A stretch of 64,000 bases of DNA, from the NCBI RefSeq assembly GCF_002234675.1, contig NC_019879.2, positions 28,413,063 through 28,477,062 on the forward strand, written 5' to 3'. Positions 15,701 to 54,759 of this stretch are shown one piece after another; position 1 is the first letter of the stretch, and each line of letters begins with the position of its first letter. Origin of the DNA: Oryzias latipes (Eukaryota > Chordata > Actinopteri > Beloniformes > Adrianichthyidae). The notes under the pieces are model-generated. The model did not search any database. It had not been told where the DNA came from and saw only the letters and a list, made by a program, of their open reading frames with translations. The position numbers were made by a program, and so were the translations under genes.

Positions 15701-18700
15701 AAATAAATCCCATTTTTTCAACCCTTGTGCTATCCTAGGCACTTTAACATTGGGAGTGGGGTCATCTAGACCCACCAGACAGTGCTCTGAACCTTTTTTC
15801 TTCAATGATATGTGATCTACACTGGTGTCCATGGATTACATGAAATTTTTCCACCTTTATCGACCTTTGTCATAGTAGGGAGAACACGTCAAAGTAAGGG
15901 TGGGGTCATCTAAGATAGCACAAGGGTTAATGGTTCCAACTGGAAATTTAATGATTAAATAAAGTTTAAAGCAGCTGCAGACATTTTACAGAGGATGAAG
16001 ATAAACTTTACCCTCAAAAACTGAGGGAAATTGGAAGCTAAAATAATAAATAAATCAGACGGCAACCCCAACCTCGTACAGGCCGGTCCGTGACAATAAT
16101 ATACCGGCCCCTCTCCTGAAAAAGGTTGGGGACTACTGCCTTCAGACTGTGAAGAAAGTTTGGTTTTGGTCTGATGTTTCACAAAGAATTGTAAAAGCAG
16201 CTCGGAGACAGCGGCTGAGGTGGAAGAAGAAGAAAGTACTTTACATGATCGCCTCAGCATTGACCACGCCCACCTGGTATATCAAACCAATTGGTTACGA
16301 ATTTTAAACTAATGCCTTCAAGCCTAAAATGCATATTTTGGGAGCGTAACAACAAAGCTCAGACGTTATGGAGTCTGAACCGGTCTTACGAAACGCCTCA
16401 CCTATGCTTGAACCGCATGGCCAAGCTCTTCACCTCTGGTTGGCTGAGGTAACAGGAGAAGTCCACACGCAGCTTTTCGTGACGGACGATCTCCCCAGTC
16501 GCGGCTGTCTTTGTCATGATGGCGTTCTTGTAGATGATTTGAGTGTCGTTTGCCTGCAGATTCATTCCAGCTTTATTTGTCTTCATCCCAAACAGTTTCA
16601 TGTCTGCAGTTTACATGTTCTCTTCCATCATGTGTGGGTTTTCCTCCCACAGTCCAAAAACCTGCTTCATCGTTTAATAGATGATTACAAATTATCTCTA
16701 GGTGTGTTGGGATGGACTCCAGCAACCCTGTGACCCCCAAAGGGATTCGGTGGATGGATGGTCAAACATTGACATGTTGGAATCTCTTTATTTCTGTTCT
16801 CTAAACAGTTTCAGGCTCATTTTTGCAGACATACCACAGAAACAACTTGTTAAACTTTTGGCCTTCAATTTGAAGACTGAAGCTTGAAAAGATTTGAGAT
16901 TTTGTTAAAGAAAAAAAATCTTCAGACTGACTAGATGAACCATCATCTGATTTCATCTCCCAGCTTATTTCTGATTTCTTCCAGTTGAATTTTCCCTTTG
17001 AACCTCAAATAAGAAGAAGAACATTAACCTCTCTTGAACTACAGAGGATACCCACCATGATCAGGGTTCCACATGACTTCTCAGTGTCAAAGCCAAAGGT
17101 CACCATGTGGGTCACGTTGTCCATTTCCCCTCTGCAGGTCTGGTCATTGAGGTGTAAAGTGGTATAGTCGATGCGTTCGTCCTCCAGGAGACAGTTGGCC
17201 AGAACCACTGAAGCAGATTTCTTCTCACAAACTATCGGCTCACCTTAAATTCACACGGAACAAAGAGAGGTATTTTTCTGGTTCATTGCAAAACCCCGGC
17301 AGATAAAAACCACAGCTAAGGCTACCAAGTCCAGCATGTTGATTTAAAACCCATCAAGGCATTTCATAAAGTCACAGACTACTGAGATAAGAAAGAGGAG
17401 AAGACTGATAAAATTGTTTTATTTTTCTTTGATGACTCACCAAAGCGGCCAATTGGTTTGTATTTAGAGGCAAAAATGGCACGGCAAAGGCAGCGAGGCT
17501 TCTGACTGTGGCTGTCCAGACCACAGAACTCATGGGAGCTGCAGATCTTCTGACAGGCAGTCCGCTCAACTCCACCTGGAAACAGAAAATCCAATTAAAA
17601 AGCTGAAAACGTCCTTGTCTTTGTCTATTCCCTGCAGCAGAGCCATGACTTAAACACTAGGAGAAACATCTATTAATGGATCTATAAGTAAATTCCCTTT
17701 TTTTAATCGTAACATATATTACTGAATTATACAAAAATTAAGTTTCTAAAAACTTCACTAAAATAACATTGTCAGTGTCGATTAGGACAGATTAAGAAGA
17801 ATGGGTGTAGCAAAGGCCGTACAGTAGCTGGTCTGTGTCCGCCAACCCTCCACCCTCACACCGCTGTGGAGTTGGCAGGCCTTGGCATAGGCCTCCAGGA
17901 ACTGGCACTCCAGCCCGTCCTTTGCCGGGTATTTGCACAAAGTTTCTGAGCAGGCACTCATGAAGGGCTGAGGGTTGATGTTGGAGCTACATATGTCAAA
18001 GGGCGCCTTCTGCAGGACATCACACCTGTTAAACCGGAAAAAAAACCCAGAACATTAGAGTAAAGAGGAAAGACAGTGCTAGTTTTGTTTTATCTGCATT
18101 TACCATTTGACCGTGTTGTTGCAGTTTATGGAGCTGTCAGCTGCATCTTGATACTCAGTGTTACAGCTGCGTGAAAACAAAAACAATTATTAGATAAACA
18201 CTTTGAGAACATTTAAGGAAAGAATAATGACCTGGAGGGAGTCTTACTCTGCTGTGCTGTACTGAGAGACTCTGACTTGTGTCAAAGTTGTTGAATTCTC
18301 ACATAAACCCTGGAAAGTTGCTCCATTTGGTCCTTGGCATCCAAGACAGATCGTGTAAAATGTCAGTAATGTTTGACAGGACAATCTTCAGAACATCAAG
18401 TGCTTTGAAGTGTTTAACAGAGATAAACAGACACACTGGTGCAACTTGATCTGCAGGACTGACTTTAGCTGAAAGAAATGAAAAGTTTACTGTCTGTTCT
18501 TGAGTTTGTCCTCTCTTTTTTCCTGCATGGTAGTTTATCCTCCTCCTGCATTTCTTCTGACTTCCTTGTCCTTCTTTGTTAGACAGAGAGAAATGTAGCA
18601 CCACTTTTATTGGACAGATAATACTGTTACAATAGAAAGTAAGTAAAGACTTCCTGAACACAGCGGGAGTATATTTGCATAAACTCCTTTTGCTTAACTT

Positions 18701-26152: not shown

Positions 26153-27214
26153 TTACTCCACATTGATCTGAGAGGAGCCGGCTCTCAGAACCTGAAGAGT
26201 GATGATGAGTTTAGCAGATTTTCGGAACCAGGGGTAAAACAGAGCGTAGATCAGAGGGTTCAGGAGGGAGTTAAAGTAGAAGAGAACGAAGGCGAACGAC
26301 GACGCCTGGAACTGGGCCTCCTGCCCTGTTTGGGTGACAGAAAAATACGGGCAGAGGCAGATCAGGAAAGCCAGCCCGACGAGTCCCAGAGTTCTGGCAG
26401 ATTTGAGTTCAGACTTCTTCAGAGTGACTCTGGCCGAGCCGTGAACGGCGCAAGTGCGCATGGCTCGAACCTGAGACACGGCCACCACAAACACCCTGAT
26501 GTACAGAACCAACACCACCGACACAGGCCCGACGAAGAAGAACAGAACATCCACCAGCCCCGAAAACTGGTCGAAAACAACCACGCACTCCCCTTGGCAG
26601 GAGTTATGACTGCCGGGCTGCTGCAGGTTGTTCTTCATCACGAGGAAGACGCAGAGGAAGGAGAAGATCCAGCAGCCCGACACAGAGATGCAAACTCGCC
26701 TCTTCGTCACCTTCATGGAGTACCGAAGAGGCTCGCAGATCGCCACGTAACAGTCGACCGATATGAGCACCACCGTCTCCACCGAGGCAGAGGTGACAAC
26801 GTAGTCCACAATATAATAGGCCACACACATGACGTCACCAAGAAACCAGCAGCCGTCTATGAGCAGGATCTGAAAGACCACCAGGAGGCCCACAAAGAAG
26901 TCTGAGACGGCCAGAGAGAGGAGGAGGAGGTTGGTGGGAGTTTGGAGCTGCCTGCAGGAGCAACAGAGGAACATTACTGTGCAGAACCTCATTCACACAC
27001 AAACTGTTCTGTTCTGCAGCCTAAAACGTTCAGAATACTTGAAGTGTGAGATGGAGATGATGACCAGCAGGTTCAGCGCCACGGTGAGCACAGACATGGA
27101 GCACAGTATGATGTACATGAACATGGATTCTGCAGGAGGACGCCCGCTTCTCCTGCAGGAGGAGTTAAGCATATGTGGAAAACAGAGTTCAGCCTCTTTC
27201 GCCTGGGTTTGCAT
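26153..27214 (-). CDS. Trace amine-associated receptor-like GPCR, gene 3, DRY changed to DCY
   Basis: Probable olfactory amine receptor. Exon 1 (27214-27039) begins MQTQAKEAELCFPHMLNSSC and ends in TM1. An 87-bp GT-AG intron follows, then exon 2 (26951-26153); the total is 324 residues. Asp3.32 (YYIVDYVVT) and Asp5.42 (LVDVLFFFV) are both present, as in diamine-type TAARs, and the TM7 signature is NSLLNPLIYALFYPWF. The DRY motif after TM3 reads DCY (ISVDCYVAICEP), so Arg3.50, needed for normal G-protein coupling, is Cys. Trp6.48 is Leu (CLCPYF). The frame is fully open, so this may be a recent loss or an altered receptor. A run of A follows the stop directly, and an AATAAA lies 28 nt downstream. 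Confidence 0.9.
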
Positions 27215-31440: not shown

Positions 31441-31646
31441 TACACACATTGACAAAAAAAAAAAAACCTTCCTTCCGCAGGTGGTCTCTAACCCAAGCTC
31501 GGGTCCTAGAGCTTGAGGGTCCTGTACACTATCTAAAATAAACAGCCTGTTTATTTAGTTTTTATTGTCTCATCAAAACGATTATGCAACCTGTGACATC
31601 ACTGAAATGAAGGAGATGAAAGATGACATCATTGACACGGCACCAT

Positions 31647-31823
31647 CAGTCATAATGCCTCATGCGCATGATGTCATATGACCTCATGACTGGCATCATA
31701 TGATGTAATATGACATCACATGACATAAGTCATGGGAATATAACCTCCTGACTGACATCATATAACATCATATAAAGTCAGTCATGAGGTCATATGACAT
31801 CATGCGCATGAGGTAATGGCATT
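31647..31823. repeat. Long palindrome upstream of coiled-coil gene, copy A
   Basis: Arms of about 45 bp (31647-31691 and 31779-31823) share CTCATGCGCATGATGTCATA and its complement. The ~87-bp spacer holds further ATCATATGA-type palindromes. It lies about 255 bp before the ATG at 32079 and is kept in copy B with a shorter spacer. It could form a cruciform or act as a regulatory element with paired CRE/AP-1-like half sites (TGACATCA). Confidence 0.8.
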
Positions 31824-32078
31824 ACTTGTCCTTTGGAAGTTTACATATAGGTCTTCTACTGACTGACAGGCTATTGAAACTTGAGGTGCGATCAGTGAGT
31901 GTTTAAGACATTGAAAACTGTTAGAAAGCAGTTTTTTCCCCCTACAGGAAACGAAAAAACTTAACAGGATTTTCATTTTGAGACTTTAGCATACAGGCAA
32001 TAAAAAAAACAAATTTCCCCTAATTTGTTTCATACCGTTTAATCTTTTACTAAATTTTGAGAACAAAAAGGGTAAAAA

Positions 32079-33497
32079 ATGTTTCTGAATAGACTGTTCC
32101 GCTCGTTCTTTGAGCCAACCACGAGCATCCACCATGAGTTTGTGTCGTTTGAACCCATGGATCCAGAATACCTGGAAGATTGTTCTAGAATTCAGATTCT
32201 GCAGCAGAAAAGCAAGGCTCTCAGGGAAGAACTGCAGGATCTGCAAGAGAAATATCAGAAAAAAGCGGAGGAAAAATTTGATTATGCCACCCTGAAAACT
32301 GAGACGACTTCTCTGATGAAGGAGCAATCAAACATGGAAGAGCATCTGCAGGAGCTGAAACTGCAGTATGACTGGGCTCTGAGAGTAAATCCACACAACT
32401 TTCCAATCGATCAGCACAGATTAAGAAAGGAAAAAGAGGAGCTTCTGGAAAAACGTGATGGACTTTCAAATACAATCAGCCAATTAGACCAACAAGTGTC
32501 CCAATATCAAAAGGATCAAATAATCACCTTGGAGCTGGAAAAAGAAAATAAAGAAATTATTCAGGAAGTGGAAAAGATGCAGAACAAATGTGTTGATTTG
32601 TCAAACTTAAAAAACAAGTTTGTTTCTGCAAGAGACAAATGTAAATCTGCTCAGGAGCAAAACTACCAACTCAAGGAGCAACTTTCACATCTGAAATCAA
32701 AGGTCCAACAAGAGGAGGCTCTGGTGCTGACCAGCTTGGATGTTTCTGCAAGTAATCTGGAAGAAAAATACAAAAGCAAATGCGATCACATCCAGGCTTT
32801 GCAGCAACAAAAAGCAGATCTCCAGAAAGAGTTAGAAGATCTAGAAAACAAAGAATGTGAAGAATCGGCCCTGAGAATCAAGTTATCCCACCTTGAGACT
32901 CAAAAGAGCAAGTTAGAGGGTCAATGTGAGCAAATTAAAAAGGTTACTGACATATTCACCAAACAATGTAAAAAGACAGCAAGCTGTCTTGAACAAGTGG
33001 ATGACCTAAAATCAGACATCGACTCACTTAAAAAGGAAAAAGAATCCCTCCTGAAAGAAAGGAAAGAAGTAGAACTCTTAAAATCAGAATTACAAGAGCT
33101 GCTACCGAAATATGAGGAGGTGTATTCCAGTGTCAAGACTTTAAAAAATGAAAAGTTTGACCTGAAAAAGGAAATCCTAAATCTCCGTTCAGACGCCTGC
33201 AAGTCTAAACGCATTCAGGTTGAGTTAGAAGCTGCAAAAAGCGAAGAAGCAATCCTGAGGAAACAAAATTTATCTCTGGCTAAAGTGGTTTCAGACTGCA
33301 GATCCAAGGTCCAACAGCAAAAACCGATTCAGAACAACCTTCGGCGGGCTGCAGTCAGACACCCGGGTCTGACACTTAGACCTGCATTGGAGAAGAAATC
33401 TGCAAAGACACAAGTGAAGAAAGCTGCTGTGAATAAGCCCCTTACCAAAGAAGCTAAGCAGCAGAGTCTCTGCGCACGTGAAAGAGGTTGGAGATAG
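32079..33497 (+). CDS. Intronless 472-residue coiled-coil protein, copy A
   Basis: I do not recognise this gene. The frame is fully open. The N-terminus is short and hydrophobic/basic (MFLNRLFRSFFEP). Heptad-rich coiled coil starts at about residue 35 and runs to about 420, with a small break near WALRVNPHNFPID (~98-110) and few Pro or Gly otherwise. The tail from ~435 is basic (KKSAKTQVKKAAV). There are no TM segments or enzyme motifs. A structural, cytoskeletal or chromosome-associated role would suit such a protein but is not shown. It has no introns, so it may be an old retrocopy or a gene carried with a repeat. Its partner in copy B differs at 13 residues. The start follows GGTAAAAA and is the same in both copies. 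No clear AATAAA within 200 bp downstream. Confidence 0.75.
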   Translation: MFLNRLFRSFFEPTTSIHHEFVSFEPMDPEYLEDCSRIQILQQKSKALREELQDLQEKYQKKAEEKFDYATLKTETTSLMKEQSNMEEHLQELKLQYDWALRVNPHNFPIDQHRLRKEKEELLEKRDGLSNTISQLDQQVSQYQKDQIITLELEKENKEIIQEVEKMQNKCVDLSNLKNKFVSARDKCKSAQEQNYQLKEQLSHLKSKVQQEEALVLTSLDVSASNLEEKYKSKCDHIQALQQQKADLQKELEDLENKECEESALRIKLSHLETQKSKLEGQCEQIKKVTDIFTKQCKKTASCLEQVDDLKSDIDSLKKEKESLLKERKEVELLKSELQELLPKYEEVYSSVKTLKNEKFDLKKEILNLRSDACKSKRIQVELEAAKSEEAILRKQNLSLAKVVSDCRSKVQQQKPIQNNLRRAAVRHPGLTLRPALEKKSAKTQVKKAAVNKPLTKEAKQQSLCARERGWR

Positions 33498-33734
33498 ACC
33501 AGGTGGTGAGACACAAGAAGAACCTGAATGCTCACAGAAAAAAAACCTGACTGGAACTCTGTCCACACTGTTCATCCAAATGAGAAGCACTAAAGATGAG
33601 AAGTTTGGACATACTCATCCATTAGACCCCCCCACCCCCCCACCCACATACACGGCATCTACACAAAATAATCAATGTCGTGAAAGATAAAGCAGTCAAC
33701 TGGACTATTTCATCTTTTAGTAATGAAAATGTTT

Positions 33735-35615
33735 CCTCTCTTCTCCAAGAGGCTTTTCTCTATTCAGAGCTTCAATTCTCAGATCTGAGAAAGCATGAAT
33801 GGAGAAAAAATGTCTTTTAGAGTAAAAAATAGGTAAAAAGGTGGTTTTAGAAAGAGTAGTCTAGATTTCAAACTTGTAATAAATCTAGCCACAGGGATAA
33901 AACCTGTCACCATAGTAGGACTTGAAAAAACAGGGCGGCACTTCGGCTTGTTGGGTCAACTTTGTGACCTCACTGACTTGTGTCTGAGTGGGTTTTCTCC
34001 GAGGGGTTCAGTCCCCCCCACCCACCTCAATCCACTAATGCTGCAGAAATGACATTTGGAAGTAGTAGATAAAACAGCACTTTAGTGGATTTGGTTCACT
34101 TATTAGTTCTGAAGACGTTTTTCATCTTCTCCAAGAGGCTTTCTTTCTGAAGTTTATTCCTCAAAACTGAGAAAGGTTCTTGGAGAAAAATTTATTTTAT
34201 AGTTTATATAGGACTTGAAAAAACAGGGCGGCAGGGTTTGTAGGATCAATTATGTGATCTGACTGACTTGTGTCTGAGTGGGTTTTCTCTGAGTGCTTCG
34301 GTTCCCCCCACCCATCCAAAACATGGTTTCATGGTTACCATTCAATTTGCAGGTTCATGTCAATTAAAATGACAAAGTCAGTTTGACTTAAAAATACATG
34401 AAATATGCAGAAAACCAAGATTTAGAACAAAGGCATTGGAGAGATTTCTGTATACGGACCTATGGAATGAATTAAACAAAGACTGTTCCTTGTCCTTTAT
34501 TAAATATTATCATTTTATTTTAGATTGTATTGATGTTTTGTATTGTTATAAAATGAAATACATGTTGAAAATAAATTTAAAAACTCTAATAATGTAAATA
34601 TGTAAAGATTTGTAGTTAAAACAACATTTAGGGGATTTGGTTTATTTTTAATTAAGAGGTTTTTCTTCTTCTCCAAAAGGCTTTTCTCTATTTTGAACTT
34701 TAATCCTCAGAATTGAGAAAGCCTCTTGGAGAAAAAATTTATTTATAGTAAAAAAATAAAAAAAATAAAAGGGAAAAACGTTGTTTTAGAATGGCTAGAC
34801 TAGATGTTAAACTTGTAATAAATCTAGCCATAGGGATAAAAATGGTCACCGAATTAGGACCTAAAAAACAGGGCGGCACGTCAGTTTGTTGGGTCGACTT
34901 TGTGACCTGACTGACTCGTGTCTGAGTGGGTTTTCTCCGAGTGCTTCGGTTCCCCCCACCCATCCAAAACATGGTTTCATGGTTACCATTCAATTTGCAG
35001 GTTCATGTCAATTAAAATGACAAAGTCAGTTTGACTTAAAAATACATGAAATATGCAGAAAACCAAGATTTAGAACAAAGGCATAGGAGAGATTTCTGTA
35101 TACGGACCTATGGAATGAATTAAACAAAGACTGTTCCTTGTCCTTTATTAAATATTATCATTTTATTTTATATTGTATTGATGTTTTGTATTGTTATAAA
35201 ATGAAATACATGTTGAAAATAAATTTAAAAACTCTAATAATGTAAATATGTAAAGATTTGTATTTAAAACAACATTTAGCGGATTTGGTTTATTTTTAAT
35301 TAAGAGGTTTTTCTTCTTCTCCAAAAGGCTTTTCTCTATTTTGAACTTTAATCCTCAGAATTGAGAAAGCCTCTTGGAGAAAAAATTTATTTATAGTAAA
35401 AAAATAAAAAAAATAAAAGGGAAAAACGTTGTTTTAGAATGGCTAGACTAGATGTTAAACTTGTAATAAATCTAGCCATAGGGATAAAAATGGTCACCGA
35501 ATTAGGACCTAAAAAAACAGGGCGGCACGTCAGTTTGTTGGGTCGACTTTGTGACCTGACTGACTCGCGTCTGAGTGGGTTTTCTCCGAGTGCTTCAGTT
35601 CCCCCCACCCATCTA
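33735..35615. repeat. Tandem hairpin-bearing repeats, copy A
   Basis: At least four related units. Each has (i) an inverted repeat CTCCAAGAGGCTTTTCTC ... GAGAAAGCCTCTTGGAG (hairpins near 33746, 34131, 34668 and 35318), (ii) an ACAGGGCGGCACGT block followed by TGTCTGAGTGGGTTTTCTCC and GGTTCCCCCCACCCA, an L2-tail-like stretch, and in two units (iii) a segment with LINE C-terminal-like coding. Units 34323-34970 and 34971-35612 are nearly identical direct copies of ~648 bp; copy B has only one. Confidence 0.75.
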
Positions 35616-35619
35616 AATC

Positions 35620-37450
35620 CACTAATGCCTGACCGGAACTTAACATGGTGTTCATTTGTTCTATCATGTTAAACACCATCCATCCATTTTCGAAACCCAT
35701 TTTTGAGTATTCCGTCAAAAAATGTGCAAGTATTTGAAGAAGCGGGGGTCACCTTTTTCTCAAAGAAATGTAAAGTAATAACAATAAATGACATACATAA
35801 ATAAATAAATAAATAAACAAATAAACAAACAAATAAATAAGTACATAAATATCAGTCACCAAAATATATAGATAATGAACCAAATTAAAGCCTGGCGGTC
35901 CTGTGGGTCTTCTCTTTTTTCGGCTTCCCCACAGTAATTGTTAGTCATTGGCTAGTGACTGATAAATACCCCCTCCCTGAATCGCCTCCTTATCGTGGTG
36001 GAGGGGTTTTCGTGCCCGAATGATCCCAGGAGTCGGTAGCTGGATGGTGTTCCACCTCAAACCGGTCCTGGGAGACGGGCCAGACTAAGGGCGATTCAAA
36101 CAAAAAACATTTCATTGCTAGATCCACTTATTCCCCCAATAAGAGTTACCAGGTCCCCACCCTGGAGCCAGACTAGTTCTTGTCTGGTGGCTTTTAATTG
36201 CACTGGGGCAGTGGACAGGAGGTTTTGTCTAAAATAAAAAATTTAAATTACCCACGAGAAAATGCTCCCTTCTCTTCGTATTTCAAAATTTCTTGAAGAA
36301 AATAAAACAATAGTTCAGATACAAATCTTAATGGTAATAAAATGTAACTTCCGGCTGGGCGGAGTCGGAGCTCAGATGTTTTTTATGCTGTAAACATTTC
36401 AAAGACGCTGGCTGCTTTACTAACATAAATAAATACAAAATCCTGTTTTATTTTTGTGGCTTTGATGCTCCTTCTGGGTTTTACTCAGAGAAAGGGGCAA
36501 GAATGGTGGAAAACGTCAGAATCCCTTTCGAACAGAACCAATACAAAGTCCAAATTCCCACCCGAATCCCTAGCTACTAAAACAATATGTAGTGCGGCAC
36601 GATATAGTTCTCTAGATTTTAAAAGCAATTCGGACACCATGCTCACTACTTTTTTCTTTCGGGTGTTGTTCATATGGCGCTTGACAAGAAAACAGAGTGG
36701 CGCATTACTGCCACCACCTGGTCGGGAGGAAAACTATTTCTATTTTACGCGGGTTATGATACCCATTTTCCAAAGTAAAAACCTAATAAATATGAACATT
36801 TTACGAAGACTATTTATGAATCGGCACACATTGGTATAGATTTAATGTATTTATTCAGAAATTTCCTGCCAAGTTACCGGTCCATTCCATGGCAATGTTT
36901 ATATTTATTTTTGTGCCGCTGAACTATTTACGGGCTTGTGCGGGTTGGCATTTTTCTGGGGTTTTCTCTTCAACTTTAATGAAAATGGCTTTGAATATTA
37001 ATCTGCCCGTGTTCCTGTTGGCAATAATTTAACCGTTTTTCGTGAGATCAAACCAAAAACGATCAGATATGCATTACAGGGTGGCAAGGAGGAGAAGCAG
37101 ACGTCTCAGAAGATTTCCTTTGACTGCCCTGACCAGACATGAACAACTTGTGGGTTAAACTAAAAGGATTTTTTTTTTTTTTACTCAAGCATTTGTCACT
37201 AATTGTGCTCAGGGTTACACCATCTGCTAGGCAAGAGTTTAACATTCTTTTTCAACACTGGAGTATGAGTTGCATAGTCTAATTACATGTAACACTCTTG
37301 TGAATTCAGAAAGTTTTTTCTTCTTCTTCAGAGTCAAACCATATCAGCCTTCAACAAAAGGGTTCTATATCAGTTCATTTAGAAAAAATATTTACAGCAC
37401 TCTTGTTATAAACAAAAATACTTTCATTTTTAAAACTTAATATGAAAATC
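35620..37450. other. Repeat-derived stretch without a gene, copy A
   Basis: Holds an (AAAT)n/(AAAC)n tract near 35795-35850, a GC-richer module at 36000-36235 (CCCAGGAGTCGGTAGCTGG; GGGAGACGGGCCAGACTAAG) that recurs at 38636-38850 and 44610-44860, and a MITE piece near 36553-36670 (CAAATTCCCACCCGAATCCC; AATTCGGACACCATGCTCAC). No supported coding region. Confidence 0.55.
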
Positions 37451-37454
37451 CAAA

Positions 37455-38412
37455 AACCCAGCCAGGGCCTTTGACATGCCACGGTCCACTGTGAGTGACG
37501 TTGTCCACAGGACGGCAGACCACATTGTCCAGGTGATGAGCAGGGTCATCCGGCTTCCCAAGAAGAATGAACTGCCATTAGTCGCCACTGGTTTTTAGCA
37601 GCTCGCTGGGTCTGCTGCCTTCCAAAATGTTGTGGGGAGCATTGTTGGCTGCCACATAATAATAAAGGCCTTAACCCTTGTGCTATCTTAAATGACCCCA
37701 CCCTTGCATTGACGTGTTCTCTCTTCCATGACAAAGTTGGATAAAGGTGGAAAGATTTCATGTAATCCATGGACACCAGTGAAGATCACAAATCATTGAA
37801 GAAAGGTTCAGAGCACTGTCTAGTGGGTCTAGATGACCCAACTCTCAATGTTACAGTGCCTAGGATAGCACAAGGCTTACAAGAAAATACAGCTTGTTAT
37901 TTTAACAGGAAATTGTTTTATTCCATTCAAATGCAGGCTGTATGTAAGATAAGATAAAATAAGATAAGATAAGATAAAGATGTATGTGATTTTAATTCCA
38001 ATTTCTTTGATATTTTTGTTGGATATCCAGGATCAGTCCATGACTCACGGGTTCTGTTTAACAGCCCAATTTATGTAAATCAAACATACCAACCTGAAGG
38101 ATACATCCTTTTGGGTGATGGTGGGTATCCCTGCATTGCACATCCCATCATGCTGCTGACTTCCTACAGGGAACCTGTGAGGAATGCGGTTGAGGCCGTT
38201 ACAACCAGTACCACGCCAGGTGGTGGAGAGAGCATTTGGCATGATGAAGATGAGGAGGAGAGGGGGCTTCTTGGAGCCACAGATGATGAGCCACAGCAGG
38301 ACGACACCAGGAACCAGCAGGAGGAGCAAAGTGTCGTCCGTCTGCGAGGACAAATCTCTGCTTTCCTTTCAGCTCCAACTGCAACACAAATTGCTCTAGA
38401 AGACCATGATTA
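37455..38412 (+). pseudogene. PIF/Harbinger transposase relic, copy A
   Basis: The first piece (37455-37670) reads RAFDMPRSTVS-type helix-turn-helix and SAVFQKVVGSI followed by HIRIKA-type residues near its end. A TTAA MITE (37671-37880) then cuts the gene. The frame resumes as CYFNRKLFYSIQMQAVC, and after a GATAA microsatellite (37945-37978) gives FFDIFVGYPGSVHDSRVL, the DDE nuclease core, plus GYILLGDGGYPC and an RQVVERAFGMMK segment in another frame. The gene is clearly dead: MITE insertion, microsatellite, frame changes and a missing stretch near the C-terminus. Confidence 0.8.
37671..37880. mobile_element. piggyBac-type MITE in Harbinger gene, copy A
   Basis: Begins TTAACCCTTGTGCTATC and ends GATAGCACAAGGCTTAC; the right TTAA has become TTAC. 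It splits the Harbinger transposase frame right after the RIKA residues. The same insertion is at the same codon in copy B, so it predates the duplication. Confidence 0.85.
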
Positions 38413-38635
38413 ATGTTAACATATATAAAAATAAGTTAACATTTAAAATTAAATTGTAAATATTCATATTTGATGTTTAAATGCAATCGTTTTGCGATTT
38501 TTAAAAATGGCTCAGATTTAAAACATACATGTAAATAATTCATTTTTGTTCATACATTTTTTCATACAAATTGCAAAAACACCAACGTTAGGGGTTAGGG
38601 CGGTAATCCGGACACATGGCATGTCTGCCTCCAAC

Positions 38636-39235
38636 CACCGAATGATCCCAGGAGCTGTTAGCTGGATGGTGTTCCACCTCAAACCGGTCCTGGGAGACGG
38701 GCCAGACTAAGGGCGATTCAAACCAAAAAACCTTTTCATTGCTAGCTCCTATTACACCCCCAATAAGAGATAACAGGTCCCCACCCTGGAGCCAGACTAG
38801 TTAGTTCTTGTCTGGTGGCTTTGAAGTGCTCTGCGGCAGTGGACAGCAAGCACGTTGTCCTGAAGGCCCCCCAAAGCAAAGGAACTATTCTCCGTGTCTT
38901 TGTGGCAGATGAGGCCTTCTCACTGCAGAGAAACCCGATGCAGTCATTCCCAGGGGGCCTCCTTTCAGATCCAGAGCAGAGTGGGAAGTTCTCGTGTTCT
39001 GCACAGCTTCATCAGGTCCTCAGGAACCACAGGAACCTGCAGTGATGAGGCTTTGGTAACTGAAAACCAGCCACTGCACGGGATCAAACAGGTTGCTGCC
39101 AACAGAGAGGCTCTCCAGCTGAGAAACTCCTTCATGATCTACTTTCCTGCAGCTGGCAGCTCCAGAATCGTGTTTTCTGTCCTCCAAGGACTGACCCACA
39201 ATGGTTCTTTTGAGAGCCACCCACAAAACCTTTAA
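38636..39235 (+). pseudogene. Second Harbinger-type transposase relic with shared module, copy A
   Basis: The module at 38636-38815 repeats 36000-36235. It runs into a frame reading VDSKHVVLKAPQSKGTI and FVADEAFSLQRNPM, then a later frame with KQVAANREALQLRNSF, matching in order the KHVVIKAP, FVADEAF and C-terminal blocks of HARBI1-like transposases. It is heavily deleted between the blocks. It is a different Harbinger lineage from the relic at 37455. Confidence 0.6.
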
Positions 39236-39239
39236 GAGC

Positions 39240-40725
39240 TTGATTCTCTCTTTTTCACGGTTTTTACTCAGAACTTTTAAAGTACTACATTAGTTGAAAA
39301 GGTAAGAGGTTAAATAGTATATTTGGAAAGGAGCAGAACTGCCCTCTTCCTTGTTAAATCCCACCCATGGATGCAGGACGCTGCTCAGTAGCATAAAAGC
39401 AGTGAGAGAGCGTATATCTTGAGTATATAAAATAAATCAAAATACGGCAACAAAACGAAAACACACGTGTCAGGGATATCCCAAGGAAGTTTTGAAATCA
39501 TTATGGGATGGCCACACGAGCAACGGCTTGGCAGCAAGTTTGTGGCAATTTTTGTGTTTTTCGACAACATGGGAAAACAACCTTTCCGTTTGTGCAATTT
39601 TCACAAAATTTCCCACACTTGCTACCAGCTCGAGTCTACCAACAACAAAGAAGTTTTGTTAACCTTTGACATTTGGAAGAGGCCACCATATTAAATCTTT
39701 TAAATAAAAAGCACCTTTAGTACCGGATTCAAACGAAAACTCGTCCTGGGGTTTTTTATCGATCGTCTCGTAACTTCTCGGGCATTAATGGCAAGCTACT
39801 GTGGAAAAAATGTTGGAATTCGATGCTGTGAATTTTGAACGGCGTTCGCTTGGAAAATTCACAATCAGTTAATACTTTAATGTCCCGTGAGAGAAGTTTG
39901 TCTTGGGCTTTGGAGCCCACAGCTACAACATAAAGAACAAAACAGAATAAACATAACAAAACAGAATAAACATAAACAATAAGACAACACCCACAAAAAA
40001 ACAACCCTATGAAAATAACGACCAGAGACACTTGCTCTCTAGACCAATTACAGTATGTTCAGCAACTTATGGCTGACGGAACGAACGAGTTCTTATCTGA
40101 TAAATGGCGTATACTAATAAAGCGCTTTTCTACCTTCTTCGAAGGCCCAAAGCGCTTTACATTCACAAATTCACACACTGGTGGCTGCTCTATATCTATT
40201 GGTTTTGTATTTGGCTGCTCTGAAGTGTTGTCCGTTGTGCAACAACTGATGCACATTTTCATCGGTATGTCGTAAAAAGGGTATCCATGAATTCTAAGCT
40301 CAAGCTGGACGCAAAAATATAAAATTGTGGGCGTGGTACACAAAAAACCCTCGGAAAAAAAATCTACTGACACAGCTAAATAATGAAATTTAGGGAAAAA
40401 ATGTTACAGTTCTAAGGAAATTAAGTTTTTTTTGTTTGTTTATCAAAATAATCTTTAAACTTCTTCTATTTATACATTGCAGAGCACAACCTTATGGTGT
40501 TTGTTGTCACGGCAACAAATATGCTTGAAAATCCAGAATAAAACTGGAATTTATTTCTGATCATGGCTCATTTGATGCCTGATGGAAAGATGCAGGTTCC
40601 ATCATTTCGTCTGAAGTAAAGCCATAGTGAATAACAAAAAAAAGAAATGTAAATCATAATTTAAAGTCAGACAGTTACTTCCTTAAAAGAATTTAGGCAG
40701 TTTAGGCAGCAACTCCATTTTGAAA
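39240..40725. other. End segment of copy A, no gene
   Basis: Aligns with 47930-48634 and 56788-57681 of copy B, with copy B's insertions missing. AAGCGCTTTACATTCACAAA near 40152 is a common fish repeat phrase. Short open frames conserved in both copies follow the DNA identity and lack motifs. Confidence 0.6.
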
Positions 40726-40981
40726 ACCAAACCATGGTCAATACTTTTCTTTCAATTTATTTTTTTTTGGACAAAAAAAAAACAAACCTTCATTCCGCAG
40801 GTGTCCTGTACAGTGTACACAGGTGTACAGTCATAGTGTGATAGTGTACAGGGGTCCTGTACACTATCTAAAATAAACAGCCTGTTTATTTAGTTTTTAT
40901 TGTCTCAACAAAACGATGATGTAACCCGTGACATCACTGAAATGAAGGAGATGAAAGATGACATTAGTGACACGGCACCAT

Positions 40982-41098
40982 CAGTCATAATGCCTCATGC
41001 GCATGATGTTATGTGACCTCATGACTGACATCATATAACATCATATGACGTCAGTCATGAGGTCATATGACATCATGCGCATGAGGTAATGGCATTAC
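40982..41098. repeat. Long palindrome upstream of coiled-coil gene, copy B
   Basis: Arms 40982-41027 and 41051-41098 flank a spacer of only ~23 bp. The right arm edge contains a full CRE palindrome TGACGTCA (41046-41053), which copy A lacks. It ends about 250 bp before the ATG at 41346. Confidence 0.8.
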
Positions 41099-41345
41099 TT
41101 GTCCTTTGGAAGTTTACATATAGGTCTTCTACTGACTTACAGGCTATTGAAACTTGAGGCGCGATCAGTGAGTGTTTAAGACTTTGGAAACTGTTAGAAA
41201 GCAGTTTTTTTCCCCTACCGGAAACGAAAAAACTCAAGAGGATTTTCGTTTTCACACATTAGCTTAAAGGCAATAAAAAATTTTCCCCAATTTGTTTCAT
41301 ACCGTTTAATCTTTTACTAAATTTTGAGAACAAAAAGGGTAAAAA

Positions 41346-42764
41346 ATGTTTCTGAATAGACTGTTCCGCTCGTTCTTTGAGCCCACCACGAGCATCCCCC
41401 ATGAGTTTGTGTCGTTGGAACCCATGGATCCAGAATACCTGGAAGATTGTTCTAGAATTCAGCTTCTGCAGCAGAAAAGCAAGGCTCTTAGGGAAGAACT
41501 GCAGGATCTGCAAGAGAAATATCAGAAAAAAGCGGAGGAAAAATTTGATTATGCCACCCTGAAAACTGAGACGACTTCTCTGATGAAGGAGCAATCAAAC
41601 ATGGAAGAGCATCTGCAGGAGCTGAAAATGCAGTATGACTGGGCTCTGAGAGTAAATCCACACAACTTTCCAATCGATCAGCACAGATTAAGAAAGGAAA
41701 AAGAGGAGCTTCTGGAAAAACGTGATGGACTTTCAAATACAATCAGCCAATTAGACCAACAAGTGTCCCAATATCAAAAGGATCAAATAATCACCTTGGA
41801 GCTGGAAAAAGAAAATAAAGAAATTATTCAGGAAGTGGAAAAGATGCAGAACAAATGTGTTGATTTGTCAAACTTAAGAAACAAGTTTGTTTCTGCAAGA
41901 GACACATGTAAAACTGCTCAGGAGCAAAACTACCAACTCAAGGCGCAACTTTCACATCTGAAATCAAAGGTCCAACAAGAGGAGGTTCTGATGCTGACCA
42001 GCTTGGATGTTTCTGCAAGTAATATGGAAGAAAAATACAAGAGCGAATGCGATCACATCCAGGCTTTGCAGCAACAAAAAGCAGATCTCCAGAAAGAGTT
42101 AGAAGATCTAGAAAACAAAGAATGTGAAGAATCGGCCCTGAGAATCAAGTTATCCCACCTTGAGACTCAAAAGAGCAAGTTAGAGGGTCAATGTGAGCAA
42201 ATTAAAAAGGTTACTGACATATTCACCAAACAATGTAAAAAGACAGCAAGCTGTCTTGAACAAGTGGATGACCTAAAATCAGACATCGACTCACTTAAAA
42301 AGGAAAAAGAATCCCTCCTGAAAGAAAGGAAAGAAGTAGAACTCTTAAAATCGGAATTACAAGAGCTGCTACCGAAATATGAGGAGGTGTATTCCAGTGT
42401 CAAGACTTTAAAAAATGAAAAGTTTGACCTGAAAAAGGAAATCCTAAATCTCCGTTCAGACGCCTGCAAGTCTAAACGCATTCAGGTTGAGTTAGAAGCT
42501 GCAAAAAGCGAAGAAGCAATCCTGAGGAAACAAAATTTATCTCTGGCTAAAGTGGTTTCAGACTGCAGATCCAAGGTCCAACAGCAAAAACCGATTCAGA
42601 ACAACCTTCGGCGGGCTGCAGTCAGACACCCGGGTCTGACACTTAGACCTGCATTGGAGAAGAAATCTGCAAAGACACAAGTGAAGAAAGCTGCTGTGAA
42701 GAAGCCCCTTACCAAAGAAGCTAAGCAGCAGAGTCTCTGCGCACGTGAAAGAGGTTGGAGATAG
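41346..42764 (+). CDS. Intronless 472-residue coiled-coil protein, copy B
   Basis: Paralogue of 32079-33497: same length, same start context, fully open. Twelve of the 13 residue differences fall in the first ~234 codons (for example His18Pro, Phe24Leu, Lys233Glu); the last ~238 codons differ by a single residue (Asn to Lys near 452) and about one silent change. I count roughly four silent changes over the whole gene, so replacements outnumber them about three to one. That is close to neutral expectation, or mildly above it, rather than strong purifying selection. The coiled-coil layout and basic tail are as in copy A. Function unknown. Two open copies in repeat-rich DNA suggest recent duplication or retained use. 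Confidence 0.75.
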   Translation: MFLNRLFRSFFEPTTSIPHEFVSLEPMDPEYLEDCSRIQLLQQKSKALREELQDLQEKYQKKAEEKFDYATLKTETTSLMKEQSNMEEHLQELKMQYDWALRVNPHNFPIDQHRLRKEKEELLEKRDGLSNTISQLDQQVSQYQKDQIITLELEKENKEIIQEVEKMQNKCVDLSNLRNKFVSARDTCKTAQEQNYQLKAQLSHLKSKVQQEEVLMLTSLDVSASNMEEKYKSECDHIQALQQQKADLQKELEDLENKECEESALRIKLSHLETQKSKLEGQCEQIKKVTDIFTKQCKKTASCLEQVDDLKSDIDSLKKEKESLLKERKEVELLKSELQELLPKYEEVYSSVKTLKNEKFDLKKEILNLRSDACKSKRIQVELEAAKSEEAILRKQNLSLAKVVSDCRSKVQQQKPIQNNLRRAAVRHPGLTLRPALEKKSAKTQVKKAAVKKPLTKEAKQQSLCARERGWR

Positions 42765-42984
42765 ACCAGGTGGTGAGACACAAGAAGAACCTGAACGCTC
42801 ACAGAAAAAACCTGACTGGAACTTTGTCCACACTGTTCATCCAAATGAGAACCACTAAAGATGAGAAGTTTGGACATGCTCATACATTAGACCCCCCCAC
42901 CCACATACACGGCATCTACACAAAATAATCAATGTCGTGAAAGATAAAGCAGTCAACTGGACTATTTCATCTTTTAGTAATGAA

Positions 42985-44245
42985 AATGTTTTCTCTCTTC
43001 TCCAAGAGGCTTTTCTCTATTCAGAGCTTCAATTCTCAAATCTGAGAAAGCCTGTATGGAGGAAAAATGTCATTTAGAGTAAAAAATAGGTAAAAAGGTG
43101 GTTTTAGAAAGAGTAGTCTAGATTTCAAACTTGTAATAAATCTAGCCACAGGGATAAAACCTGTCACCATAGTAGGACTTGAAAAAACAGCGCGGCACTT
43201 CAGCTTGTTGGGTCAACTTTGTGACCTCACTGACTTGTGTCTGAGTGGGTTTTCTCCGAGGGGTTCAGTCCCCCCCACCCATCTCAATCCACTAATGCTG
43301 TAGAAATTACATTTGGAAGTAGTAGATTAAACAGCACTTTAGTGGATTTGGTTCATATATTAGTACTGAAGACGTTTTTCATCTTCTCCAAGAGGCTTTC
43401 TCTATTCTGAAGTTTATTCCTCAGAACTGAGAAAGGTTCTTGGAGAAAAATTTATTTTATAGTTTATATAGGACTTGAAAAAATAGGGCAGCAGGGTTTG
43501 TAGGATCAACTATGTGATCTGACTGACTCGTGTCTGAGTGGGTTTTCTCCGAGTGCTTCGGTTCCCCCCACCCATCCATCCAAAACATGGTTTCATGGTT
43601 ACCATTCAATTTGCAGGTTCACGTCAATAAAAATGACAGTCATTTTGACTTAAAAATACATGAAATATGCAGAAAACACAGATTTAGAACAAAGGCATTG
43701 GAGAGATTTCTGTATACGGACCTATGGAATGAATTAAACAAAGACTGTTCCTTGTCCTTTATTAAATGTTATCATTTTATTTTATATTGTATTGATGTTT
43801 TGTATTGTTATAAAATGAAATACATGTTGAAAATTAATTTAAAAACTCTTATAATGTAAATATGTAAAGATTTGTAGTTAAAACAACATTTAGGGGATTT
43901 GGTTTATTTTTAATTAAGATGTTTTTCTTCTTCTCCAAGAGGCTTTTCTCTATTTTGAACTTTAATTCTGAGAATTGAGAAAGCCTCTTGGAGAAAAAAT
44001 GTATTTATAGTAAAAAAAATAAAAAATAAAAGGGAAAAAAGTTGTTTTAGAATGGCTAGACTAGATGTTAAACTTGTAATAAATCTAACCATAGGGATAA
44101 AACTGGGTCACTGAATTAGGACCTAAAAAAACAGGGCGGCACGTCAGTTTGTTGGGTCGACTTTGTGACCCGACTGACTCGTGTCTGAGTGGGTTTTTTC
44201 CGAGTGCTTCGGTTCCCCCCACCCATCTAAATCCACTAATGCCTG
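42985..44245. repeat. Hairpin-bearing repeats, copy B (first block)
   Basis: Same parts as 33735-35615 but with one 648-bp-type unit instead of two. Hairpins CTCCAAGAGGCTTT...AAAGCCTCTTGGAG lie near 43386 and 43932. The unit 43585-43860 keeps an open frame with KALERFLYTDLWNELNKDC, resembling the C-terminal WN block of LINE ORF2 proteins. Confidence 0.7.
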
Positions 44246-44249
44246 ACCG

Positions 44250-46061
44250 GAAGTAAACATGGTGTTCATTTGTTTTAACATGTTAAACACCATCCATCCA
44301 TTTTCCAAACCCATTTTTACAGTATTCCGTCAAAAAAATGTGCAAGTATTTGAAGAAGCGGGGGTCACCTTTTTTCTCAAAGAAATGTAAAGTAATAAAA
44401 ATAAATGACATAAATACATATATAAATAAACAAATAAATAAACAAACAAACAAACAAATAAATAAGTAAATAAATATCAGTCACCAAAATATATAGATAA
44501 TGAACGAAATTAAAGCCTGGCGGTCCTGTGGGTCTTCTCTTTTTTCGGCTTCCCCACAGTAATTGTTAGTGATTGGGTAGTGACTGATAAACACCCCCTC
44601 CCTGAATCGCCACCTTATCGTGGTGAAGGGGTTTGCGTGCCCGAATGATCCCAGGAGTCGGTAGCTGGTTGGTGTTCCACCTCAAACCGGTCCTGGGAGA
44701 CGGGCCAGACTAAGGGCGATTCAAACAAAAAACATTTCATTGCTAGATCCACTTACTCCCCCAATAAGAGTTACCAGGTCCCCACCCTGGAGCCAGACTA
44801 GTTCTTGTCTGGTGGCTTTTAATTGCACTGGGGAAGTGGACAGGAGGTTTTGTCAACAGGTTTTGTCTAAAATAAAAAATTAAAATTACCCACGAAAAAA
44901 TGCTTCCTTCTCTTCATATTTCAACATTTCTTGATGAAAATAAAACAATAGTTCAGATACAAATCTTAATGGTAATAAATGTAACTTCCGGCTGGACGGA
45001 GTCGGAGCTCAGATGTTTTTTATGCTGTAAACATTTTAAAGACGCTGGCTGCTTTACTAGCATAAAAAAATACAAAATCCTGTTTTATTTTTGTGGCTTT
45101 GATGCTCCTTCTGGGTTTTACTCAGAGAAAGGGGCAAGAATGGTGGAAAACGTCAGAATCCCTTTCGAACAGAACCAATACAAAGTCTATCTCTGTCCAA
45201 ATTCCCACCCGAATCCCTAACTACTAAAACAATATGTAGTGCGGCACGATATAGTTCTCTAGATTTTAAAAGCAATTCGGACACCATGCTCACTACTTTT
45301 TTCTTTCGGGTGTTGTTCATATGGCGCTTGACAAGAAAACAGAGTGGCGCATTACTGCCACCACCTGGTCGGGAGGAAAACTATTTCTATTTTACGCGGG
45401 TTATGATACCCATTTTCCAAAGTAAAAACCTAATAAATATGAACATTTTACGAAGACTATTTATGAATCGGCACACATTGGTATAGATTTAATGTATTTG
45501 TTCAGAAATTTCCTGCCAATTTACCGATCCATTCCATGGCAATGTTTATATTTATTTTTGTGCCGCTGAACTATTTACGGGCTTGTGCGGGTTGGCATTT
45601 TTTTCTGGGGTTTTCTCTTCTACTTTAATGAAAATGGCTTTGAATATTAATCTGCCCGTGTTCCTGTTGGCAATAATTTAACCGTTTTTCGTGAAATCAA
45701 ACCAAAAACGATCAGATATGCATTACAGGGTGGCAAGGAGGAGAAGCAGACGTCTCAGAAGATTTCCTTTGACTGCCCTGACCAGACATGAACAACTTGT
45801 GGGTTAAACTAAAAGGATTTTTTTTTTACTTAAGCATTTTTCACATTTGTCTGCTAGGCAAGAGTTTAACATTCTTTTTCAACACTGGAGTATGAGTTGC
45901 ATAGTCTAATTACATGTAACACTCTTGTGAATTCAGAAAGTTTTTTTTCTTCTTCAGAGTCAAACCATATCAGCCTTCAACAAAAGGGTTCCATATTAGT
46001 TAATTTAGAAAAAATATTTACAGCACTCTTATTTAAACAAAAATACTTTCATTTTTAAAAC
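44250..46061. other. Repeat-derived stretch without a gene, copy B
   Basis: Counterpart of 35620-37450: an (AAAT)n/(AAAC)n tract near 44400-44475, the shared module at 44610-44860, and a MITE from about 45188 (TATCTCTGTCCAAATTCCC) through ATTCGGACACCATGCTCAC near 45285. Confidence 0.55.
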
Positions 46062-46590
46062 TTGATATTAAAATCCAAAAACCCAGCCAGGGCCTTTGAC
46101 ATGCCACGGTCCACTGTGAGTGACGTTGTCCACAGGACGGCAGACCACATCCTCCAGGTGATAAGCAGGGTCATCCGGCTTCCCAGTAAGAATGAACAGC
46201 CATTAGTCGCCACTGGTTTTGAGCAGCTCGCTGGGTCTGCTGTCTTCCAAAAGGTTGTGGGGAGCATTGTTGGCTCCCACATAAGAATAAAGGCCTTAAC
46301 CCTTGTGCTATCTTAAATGACCCCACCCTTGCATTGACGTGTTCTCTCTTCCATGACAAAGGTGGATAAAGGTGGAAAGATTTCATGTAAACCATGGACA
46401 CCAGTGAAAATCACAAATCATTGAAGAAAAAAGGTTCAGAGCACTGTCTAGTGGGTCTAGATGACCCAATTCCCAATGTAACAGTGCCTAGGATAGCACA
46501 AGGGTTACAAGGAAATACAGCTTGTTATTTTAACAGGAAATTGTTTTATTCCATTCAAATGCAGGCTGTATGTAAGATAAAATAAGATAA
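46062..46590 (+). pseudogene. PIF/Harbinger transposase relic, copy B
   Basis: The frame reads NPARAFDMPRSTVSDVVHRT, then VISRVIRLPSKNEQ, GFEQLAGSAVFQKVVGSIVG and SHIRIKA before the MITE (46296-46508), and resumes as CYFNRKLFYSIQMQAVC. The sequence then switches to hairpin-repeat DNA, so the DDE nuclease part present in copy A is absent. The helix-turn-helix region is better preserved than in copy A. Confidence 0.8.
46296..46508. mobile_element. piggyBac-type MITE in Harbinger gene, copy B
   Basis: TTAACCCTTGTGCTATC to GATAGCACAAGGGTTAC, at the same codon as in copy A. Confidence 0.85.
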
Positions 46591-46604
46591 GAAAAAGATG
46601 TATG

Positions 46605-47635
46605 TGATTTCAAACTTGTGATAAATCTAGCCACAGGGATTAAACCAGTCACCTAAGTAGGACTTGAAAAAACAGGGCGGCACGCCGGTTTGTTGGGTCA
46701 ACTTTGTGACCTGACTGACTCGTGTCTGAGTGGGTTTTCTCCGAGGGCTTCGGTTTCCCTCACCCGTCTAAATCCTCTAATGCTGTAGAAATGACATTTG
46801 GAAGTAATAGATAAAACAGCACTTTAGAGGATTTGGTTCACATATTAGTACTGAAGACGTTTTTCTTTTTCTCCGAGAGGCTTTCTCTATTCTGAAGTTT
46901 ATTCCTCAGAACTGAGAAAGGCTCTTGGAGAAAAAATGTATTTTATAGTTTATATAGGACTTGTAAAAACAGGGCGGCACGTCGTTTTGTAGGGTCAACT
47001 TTCTGATCTGACTGACTCGTGTCTGAGTGGGTTTTCTCTGAGTGCTTCGGTTCCCCCCACCCATCCAAAACATAGTTACATGCTTACCATTCAATTTGCA
47101 GGTTCATGTCAATATAAATTCATTTTGACTAAAAAAAGACATGAAATATGTAGAAAACCAAGATTTAGAACAAAGGCATTGGAGAGATTTCTGTATAAGG
47201 ACCTATGGAATAAATTTGTCCTTTATTAAATATTATAATTTCTTTTTATATTGTATTGATGTTTTGTATTGTTATAAAATGAAATACATGTTACAAATTA
47301 ATTTACAAAAATAATGTAAATATGTATAGAATTTGTAGTTAAAACAACCTTTAGTGGATTTGGTTTATTTTCAGTTAAGATGTTTTCCTTTTTCTCCAAG
47401 AGGCTTTTCTCTATTCTGAACTTTAATTCTCAGAATTGAGAAAGCCTCTTGGAGAAAAAATGTATTTATAGTTAAAAACAAAAAAAGGTAAAAAGACTAG
47501 ACTAGATGTTAAACTTGCAATGAATCTAGCCACAGGGATAAAACTGGTCACCGAATTAGGACTTAAAAAACAGAGCGGCACATAAGTTTGCAGCCCGGCT
47601 GCGTGTGAAGAATGTCCTCTGGATGCTCTCTGCAC
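46605..47635. repeat. Hairpin-bearing repeats, copy B (second block)
   Basis: Starts abruptly after GATGTATGTGATTT, where copy A continues into Harbinger DDE sequence, with CAAACTTGTGATAAATCTAG. It holds at least two units, with hairpins near 46873 and 47395, each followed by the GGGCGGCAC block. It looks like an exchange between dispersed units of this repeat. Confidence 0.65.
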
Positions 47636-47930
47636 AGTGGAGTCTATATTGACGCCTGACTGAAGATCCAGAGCAGAGTGTGAAGTTCTCGTCTTCTGCA
47701 AAGCTTCATCAGGTACTCAGGAACCTGCAGTGATGAGGCTTTGGTAACTGAAGACCAGCCGCTGCATGGGATCAAATAGGTTGCTGCCAACAGAGAGGCT
47801 CTCCAGCTGAGAAACTCCTTCATGATCTACTTTCCTGCAGCTGGCAGATCCAGAATGTTTTCTGTCTTTCAAGGACCGACCCACAATGGCTCTTTTGAGA
47901 GCCACCCACAAAACCTTTAAGAGCTTGATT
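47636..47930 (+). pseudogene. Second Harbinger-type relic, copy B, shorter
   Basis: Matches copy A from GATCCAGAGCAGAGTG onward (copy A 38968-39235), with the ADEAF-type block lost. Too short for coding. Confidence 0.5.
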
Positions 47931-48634
47931 CTCTCTTTTTCACAGTTTTTACTCAGAACCTTTAAAGTACTTCAACTACAGTACTGAACATTGGTTTTTG
48001 TACGCACTTCTAGCTTCCGGCGTTCACACAGGTCTGTCGCCATCGATGTATGACTGGGTTGGCCGTCATGTGACATGCGACACGCATGTACCATTACTGT
48101 TTATTGAGTATATTTCTTCCAGTATATATTGAGTATATAAAATAAATCAAAATACGGTAATGAAACGAAAACACACGTGTCAGGGATATCCCAAGGAAGT
48201 TTTGAAATCATTATGGGATGGCCACACGAGCTACGGCTTGGCAGCAATTTTGTGGCGATTTTTGTGTTTTTTGACAACATGGGAAAACAACCTTTTGGTT
48301 TGTGCAATTTTCACAAAATTTCCCACACTTGCTGCCAGCTCGAGTCTACCAACAACACAGAAGTTTCGTTGACCTTTGACATTTGGAAGAGGCCGCCCAT
48401 CTTGAATCTTTTAAATAAAAAGCACCTTTAGTACCGGATTCATACGAAAACTCGTCCTGGGGTTTTTTATCGATCGTCTCGTAACTTCTCGGGCATTAAT
48501 GGCAAGCTACTGTGGAAAAAAATTTGGAATTCGATGCTGTGAATTTTGAACGGCATTCACTTGGCAAATTCACAATCAATCAATCAATCAATCAAGCCCA
48601 CAGCTTCAACATAAAGAACACAGCAGAATAAACA

Positions 48635-54552: not shown

Positions 54553-54759
54553 GATAGATAGACAATTTTATTTATCCATTTGGGAGGTTCCCGCATGGAA
54601 ATTGACAAAAAAAATTCCGTATCCATAGGATACCTATCAGTAAAACGTAGGATAAGAAAAAGAAAGAAAAACAAAAAAAGGATTGAAAAACGAGAAACAG
54701 TGCTGCGGAGCGGCTGGAGTGGCTGCCGTCTCTTACAGCGCCCTGCTCAATGAACGCCC
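54553..54759 (-). mobile_element. LINE/SINE 3' fragment inserted in P transposase
   Basis: A 207-bp insert bounded by TGCCAT on both sides (54547-54552 and 54760-54765), with an (AGAT)n tail at its left end, so on the minus strand it ends ...TCTATCTATCT as a LINE 3' tail. It interrupts the transposase coding region, so the P copy was dead from this event on. Confidence 0.75.

Follow-up and report, generated by a model that had tools for sequence, protein, structure and literature searches.

Is a reading frame of 472 codons, which occurs without introns in both copies of a tandem duplication of the medaka genome, a gene, and which sequences could control it? The window, that is, the whole 64-kb stretch of DNA that was analyzed, is located on contig C21 of the Oryzias latipes genome (C21:28413063-28477062). 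A sequence-only reading had presented the frame as a real but unnamed intronless coiled-coil gene and had pointed to a palindrome upstream of it. The features discussed below are collected in table 1.

Table 1. Features of the window and the array genes with a named domain on other contigs
Feature	Position	Strand	Remarks
Reverse transcriptase fragment	342-1226	+	RVT_1, at the start of the window
7TM receptor frames	3827-4702, 9692-10537, 26153-26992	-	Pfam 7tm_1
Frames with ZP-C and C8 domains	14704-15063, 17785-18054	-	
Tandem unit A	31451-39873		approximate limits
Array A	31594-31802		six TGATGTCA/TGACATCA sites (TG/CA-variant CRE), -485 to -284 of ATG A
Palindrome	31658-31813		
Frame A	32079-33497	+	472 aa
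E1	33921-34022		repeat of about 100 bp, further copies in the unit
E2	35762-36218		repeat, well-conserved hairpin core near 35900-36021
Harbinger-type DDE transposase piece	37973-38410	+	inside unit A
E4 of unit A	38967-39405		repeat holding a histone-type 3' stem-loop
Tandem unit B	40770-48584		approximate limits; 46606-47590 is a more diverged repeat segment
Array B	40929-41075		three TGATGTCA/TGACATCA sites and one TGACGTCA, -417 to -278 of ATG B
Frame B	41346-42764	+	472 aa
E4 of unit B	47664-47974		
Rfam Histone3 stem-loop	47883-47927	+	35.3 bits; counterpart in unit A at about 39206
Split THAP9/P-element-like transposase frames	52241-54746	-	Pfam TNP-like domains
L040	C1:31.51 Mb		protein kinase, full Pkinase domain
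L044	C3:13.86 Mb		ubiquitin C-terminal hydrolase (UCH), full domain
L046	C2:17.84 Mb		UCH hydrolase, partial domain just above the cut-off

Two Open Frames in a Tandem Duplication

Both intronless frames are present as described earlier and are 97% identical, each with an in-frame stop two codons 5' of its ATG. Their length is far beyond chance, as the longest ATG frame of an order-3 Markov control (60 windows of 64 kb) had 234 codons. A frame reading on after the stop was dropped because the two copies are not both open in that frame.

The two units differ from each other by insertions and deletions. The coding sequences differ at 17 of 1419 sites without any gap, and the aligned flanks (31450-38000 against 40769-46620) at 174 of 4372 sites with 26 gaps. 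Of the coding differences, 13 are replacement and 4 silent (dN/dS 0.82), the latter among about 285 silent sites, so that silent divergence, too, is below that of the flanks (p = 0.024). Because of this low silent divergence and this dN/dS ratio, part of the likeness between the copies may be due to gene conversion. In addition, 15 of the 17 differences fall within the first 234 codons, a clustering by which the 3' half of the frames in particular may have been converted. The pair alone is no proof of selection on the protein.

The tandem units adjoin a cluster of three 7TM receptor frames, which probably encode trace-amine receptors. The frames with ZP-C and C8 domains are perhaps parts of a ZP/tectorin-like gene with several exons that lies between those for the receptors. 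Remnants of mobile elements include the reverse transcriptase fragment and the split transposase frames of table 1. The domain DDE_Tnp_4 was found in one of the 47 frames scanned and was assigned to the Harbinger-type piece from a reading of its translation.

The Protein

The hydrophobic residues of the 472-aa protein show a periodicity with a peak at 3.5 residues among the periods tried. The AlphaFold2 model, built on a two-sequence alignment (pLDDT 72, pTM 0.30), is almost wholly helical, with long helices at residues 29-64, 69-103, 108-219, and 229-427. The breaks between the helices of the model indicate that the heptad pattern is interrupted near 104-107 and 220-228. Thus, of the almost unbroken heptads claimed earlier, the period is confirmed, but the continuity appears to give way at these two places.

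The protein is made up of two halves, each of about 200 residues, that are homologous to each other, with 46 of 179 aligned residues identical. The local score of one half against the other is 152, whereas the maximum in 300 heptad-preserving shuffles was 113. At the DNA level, the halves are only 46% identical, an indication that selection probably acted on the protein long before the tandem duplication.

The Pfam scan of both window copies gave no family above the gathering cut-off. The sequence search of the PDB returned coiled-coil noise and no convincing solved relative, and the fold search of the model against a PDB library had no match at E ≤ 0.001. No relative was confirmed in prokaryote genomes. 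The description as a real, unnamed coiled-coil gene is therefore upheld by the Pfam and PDB searches.

A Family of Single-Frame Genes

The protein search of the medaka's own genome (734 Mb, 25 contigs) yielded at least 50 matches at E ≤ 0.001 among the best 90 of 194 candidates, which were scored. Grouped by hand, 50 matches correspond to at least 35 loci on ten contigs (C1, C4, C6, C9, C11, C12, C13, C14, C20, and C21), and the family size of about 35 loci is a lower bound. The matches on C4 and C6 and at the C14 locus at 28.997 Mb are weak; the membership of C14b has E 6e-4 and 22% identity behind it and is weak.

Twenty-eight loci were fetched, and one, split by the border of two pieces, was excluded. 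An ATG-to-stop frame of 472-1149 aa is held by 23 of the 27 assessed loci, and the remaining four (C9, C20, C11:2.54 Mb, and C12:25.35 Mb) are broken. The frequent broken copies that would mark a simple repeat were thus not found.

Members share several traits. The start MF is found in 19 of the 23 intact members, and a basic tail ending in ERGWR or ERGWK in 10 of the 13 rows of the family alignment. In the members of C11, a tail repeat of varying number precedes the basic end. For instance, L016 (C11:3.138 Mb) has 1149 aa and a C-terminal tail that repeats an ELEKGWNSPA motif. A Pfam scan of eight other members gave one match, that of L016 to DUF6158 (54.9 bits, cut-off 26.8), in which no single stretch passes and which concerns a repetitive protein. 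The frame of C11.316 (L017) starts at an inner ATG; the sequence upstream matches the start of C11.313 but hits a stop, so that C11.316 has probably lost its N-terminus.

The subfamilies are 22-43% identical to the window protein. Together with the two diverged internal halves, this does not support the young host gene that had been suggested at first.

The other early suggestion, a retrocopy of a longer multi-exon coiled-coil gene, whether maintained or not, agrees with the lack of introns in the frame. SYCP1, for instance, is a coiled-coil protein. The excerpt available for the amphioxus SYCP1 retrogene (PMC5803294) describes a single-exon gene, as in medaka, but there the retrocopy replaced its parent. 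In medaka, no match resembling a spliced parent was seen among the best 90 of the 194 candidates. Furthermore, all 23 intact members have an upstream array of their own, and members on different contigs have 5' flanks in common, which a retrocopy would not carry. As a trace of a poly(A) tail, no A run longer than 8 was found after the stop. An origin by retrocopying has, on this evidence, very little probability.

The gene family is well supported, and the frame of the window, as one of its roughly 35 single-frame loci, is best read as a probably functional gene for a coiled-coil protein.

Selection on Family Members

The comparison of silent and replacement changes (one-sided test of pS > pN) was applied to 12 overlapping pairs that share branches, and 8 of them showed significantly fewer replacement than silent changes (below 0.05). 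These are C12a/C12d (p = 6e-6), C12d/C12e (2e-4), C12c/C12e (1e-4), C12a/C13.249a (3e-15), C13.3222/C11.366 (7e-4), C11.313/C11.316 (3e-6), C14/C11.69 (0.03), and C11.69/C11.115 (0.02). The test was not significant for the copies A and B of C21 (p = 0.46), C13.3222/C13.3234 (0.18), C1/C11.1751 (0.10), and C11.121/C11.174 (0.08). Among the family pairs for which w was listed, four have values above 1. Taken together, these values indicate a family that evolves fast yet is constrained in several lines. The C21 pair may have been homogenized.

An Array of CRE-Variant Octamers Upstream

The upstream palindrome pointed out earlier is real and proved to be the key lead. It overlaps with array A, whose units are TGATGTCA/TGACATCA octamers, and belongs to that array; TGACATCA is the complement of TGATGTCA. 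Nine of the 12 such octamers of the 64-kb window sit just upstream of the two frames. According to the available excerpt of PMC1796609, TGATGTCA is a TG-variant CRE, weaker but functional, and is thought to arise via methyl-CpG decay.

All 23 intact members carry 3-11 TGATGTCA/TGACATCA sites, located at -485 to -74 of the ATG (up to 1000 bp were examined). Over the family, the octamers amount to 131 in 11,500 bp of upstream sequence, with none in 41,469 bp of frames and none in 29,413 bp downstream. Upstream of 11 representatives there are 71 octamers, against a mean of 1.0 and a maximum of 4 in 200 runs of an order-1 Markov model. Counted as TGANNTCA, the octamers of these representatives are 41 TGATGTCA, 30 TGACATCA, 10 TGACGTCA, and 5 others. 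The linkage of the array to the family is well supported.

Neighboring sites are separated by exactly 10 bp in 21 of 70 gaps and by 30-32 bp in 11. The circular spacing test has its peak near 10.5-11 bp, with periods 7 and 12 scoring too; this 10-bp phasing is confounded because local tandem repeats cause part of the spacing signal.

Repeats Downstream and Two Further Frame Types

The frames are followed by repeats named E1 to E4. E1 was found 3' of 12 of the 23 intact family frames and E4 downstream of seven. E2 lies downstream in the same orientation at 18 of the 23 loci; for four of the five loci without it, less than 1.2 kb of downstream sequence was fetched. At gathering scores, Rfam found in the window the histone stem-loop only, with the copy of unit B alone above threshold, and the tRNA scan found none. 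In E4 copies of other contigs, the stem-loop has kept its ability to pair, and the stretch that follows it resembles a histone downstream element.

A genome-wide search with E4, in which the best 40 of 128 candidates were scored, led to 11 fetched loci (L029-L039). Five of these hold an intact single frame of type B (L029, L030, and L038) or type C (L033 and L037), in all cases with an array upstream, at about -110 to -305. Proteins B and C match no Pfam family above the cut-off, and BLASTP against the coiled-coil family gave no match at 1e-3. The other six comprise two LINE loci, two loci with fragments of B, and two with neither.

In general, E1-E4 look like transposon-derived repeats that were copied along with array loci or repeatedly landed near them. 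In a stronger form, array, frame, and E1-E4 would be one transposable unit derived from a LINE or SINE, with exchangeable frames as its cargo. This agrees with the constant order and orientation of E2, E3, and E4 at family loci, with the similar distances at which E2 to E4 follow B and C frames, and with the LINE EN-RT frames that E4-E2 abut in L031 and L032. On the contrary, E4 also occurs without any array gene: the six E4 loci without an intact B or C frame have no array, with one lone site in L034. Conversely, the frame of C14b, which has an array, is not followed by any E2 within 3.2 kb. Moreover, the inverted repeats around unit A are only short or A/T-rich pairs, none of them convincing as terminal inverted repeats. 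A single mobile unit is, for these reasons, unlikely.

The Array in Front of Other Frames

Genome-wide, the array pattern has 657 matches and the backward pattern 377. The excess is only about 1.7-fold because satellites also make arrays, and by itself the pattern is therefore not specific. The places listed on contigs C1-C6 include 18 new nonsatellite array loci or clusters and five satellites. Nine of the 18 were picked by eye and fetched, satellites and known loci being left out.

All nine arrays precede an ATG frame. The frames measure from 207 aa to no fewer than 647 aa, and six of them run past the end of the fetched piece, so that their lengths are minima. The nearest site is located 101-240 bp upstream of the ATG in all nine. 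For comparison, random draws from the window hit upon a frame of at least 200 aa in 5.1% and of at least 400 aa in 1.7% of cases, both figures including the two ORFs. At L049, a satellite array of 20 sites that served as control, no frame reaches 100 aa. At eight new array loci, none of E1, E2, and E4 was seen; this says nothing against a link, since most of the pieces stop short of where the repeats are expected.

The new frames are of several kinds. Three encode enzymes, a protein kinase and two ubiquitin hydrolases (table 1). L041 is a coiled coil that matches C at 8e-11 and C13.249a at 7e-7, where coiled-coil bias is possible; by this likeness, the window family and C may be distant kin. 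By eye, L048 is coiled-coil-like and L042 and L043 resemble each other; L045 and L047 are two other frames behind arrays. Thus, some array genes may be far kin of the coiled-coil family, and the kinase and the hydrolases appear not to be kin. The array of L040 recurs in steps of 5.8 and 11 kb over C1:31.51-31.54 Mb, which is probably another tandem gene cluster.

The array could also be a passive tandem repeat of an ancestral unit, without any regulatory role in front of a gene family that is itself real. Parts of it are indeed local tandem repeats, with periods of 10 and 41 bp, and satellites yield arrays too. However, the upstream DNA of different subfamilies is hardly alignable except for the sites, and the array recurs at other frames, so that a passive origin seems improbable.

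Large viruses also have intronless kinases, ubiquitin hydrolases, and coiled-coil proteins. The genes might accordingly descend from an endogenous large DNA virus or a virus-transposon hybrid, as their long single frames, their copy number, and their mostly unfamiliar families could suggest. Yet no relative was confirmed in viral contigs with six peptide patterns, and no capsid or viral DNA polymerase family was present among the 108 of 225 window frames scanned. The loci are also scattered singly or in tandem arrays of the same gene, and purifying selection between diverged copies is of long standing. A viral ancestry is very unlikely in the light of these results.

A Probable Promoter Class of One-Exon Genes

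The same kind of array stands before other long frames whose similarity to the coiled-coil family is faint or absent, which argues that the array defines a promoter class, or regulon. The explanation we prefer, with a probability of about 57%, is that one-exon genes in multiple copies are under the control of a homotypic CRE-variant promoter class, probably in the early embryo or the germline. The lack of a dN < dS signal in the C21 pair counts against it.

The proposed mechanism is as follows. Each intact member would use its own array of CRE-like sites, mostly TGATGTCA/TGACATCA with some TGACGTCA and often 10 bp apart, as a promoter or proximal enhancer. A bZIP factor of the CREB/ATF/JUN type, or a relative preferring the TG variant, would bind the array and switch the gene set on together. 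Genes without introns, arranged in many tandem copies, would be suited to short and intense expression, for example when zygotic transcription first sets in or at some stage of the germline. The protein itself is predicted to act as a scaffold, in the form of an elongated coiled coil that has a basic tail.

A first zygotic or germline setting is the likeliest since short, intronless, and newly evolved genes are typical there. In the work of Heyn et al. 2014 (Cell Rep), the earliest zygotic genes are said to be short, newly evolved, and different between species. The shared CRE-variant array of the medaka set apparently has no counterpart in that description. In flies, most early zygotic genes are intronless, as stated in the available part of PMC3989599, and the medaka frames likewise lack introns.

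Compared with the TG-variant CRE promoters, as far as the excerpt of PMC1796609 describes them, the octamer is identical (TGATGTCA/TGACATCA upstream, some TGACGTCA), but single sites are found there, whereas a homotypic array of 3-11 copies extends across the medaka gene set. The TG-variant sites of medaka may be CREs that were converted by methyl-CpG decay and kept as a working code.

An early-embryo setting is also favored by a mammalian parallel in which intronless ubiquitin hydrolases take part. In mammals, the DUX-driven early-embryo regulon includes intronless tandem families such as USP17-like. In both cases, several multicopy intronless families, ubiquitin hydrolases included, would share one promoter code; the difference is that a homeobox motif serves in mammals and a CRE-variant octamer in medaka. 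Tentatively, and as something we would sooner doubt than assert, homotypic TGAYRTCA arrays could define, throughout the genome, a regulon of single-exon genes that are multicopy and evolve fast, and this regulon could correspond in fish to the DUX-type first-wave program of mammals, with a bZIP factor as its trigger. In the open-access literature, no description was found of the coiled-coil family or of such an array regulon.

If the preferred reading is true, a code of one-octamer arrays would predict hidden one-exon genes that are otherwise seen as unrelated orphans. The factor that switches on the earliest or germline-specific genes of medaka would then become directly testable.
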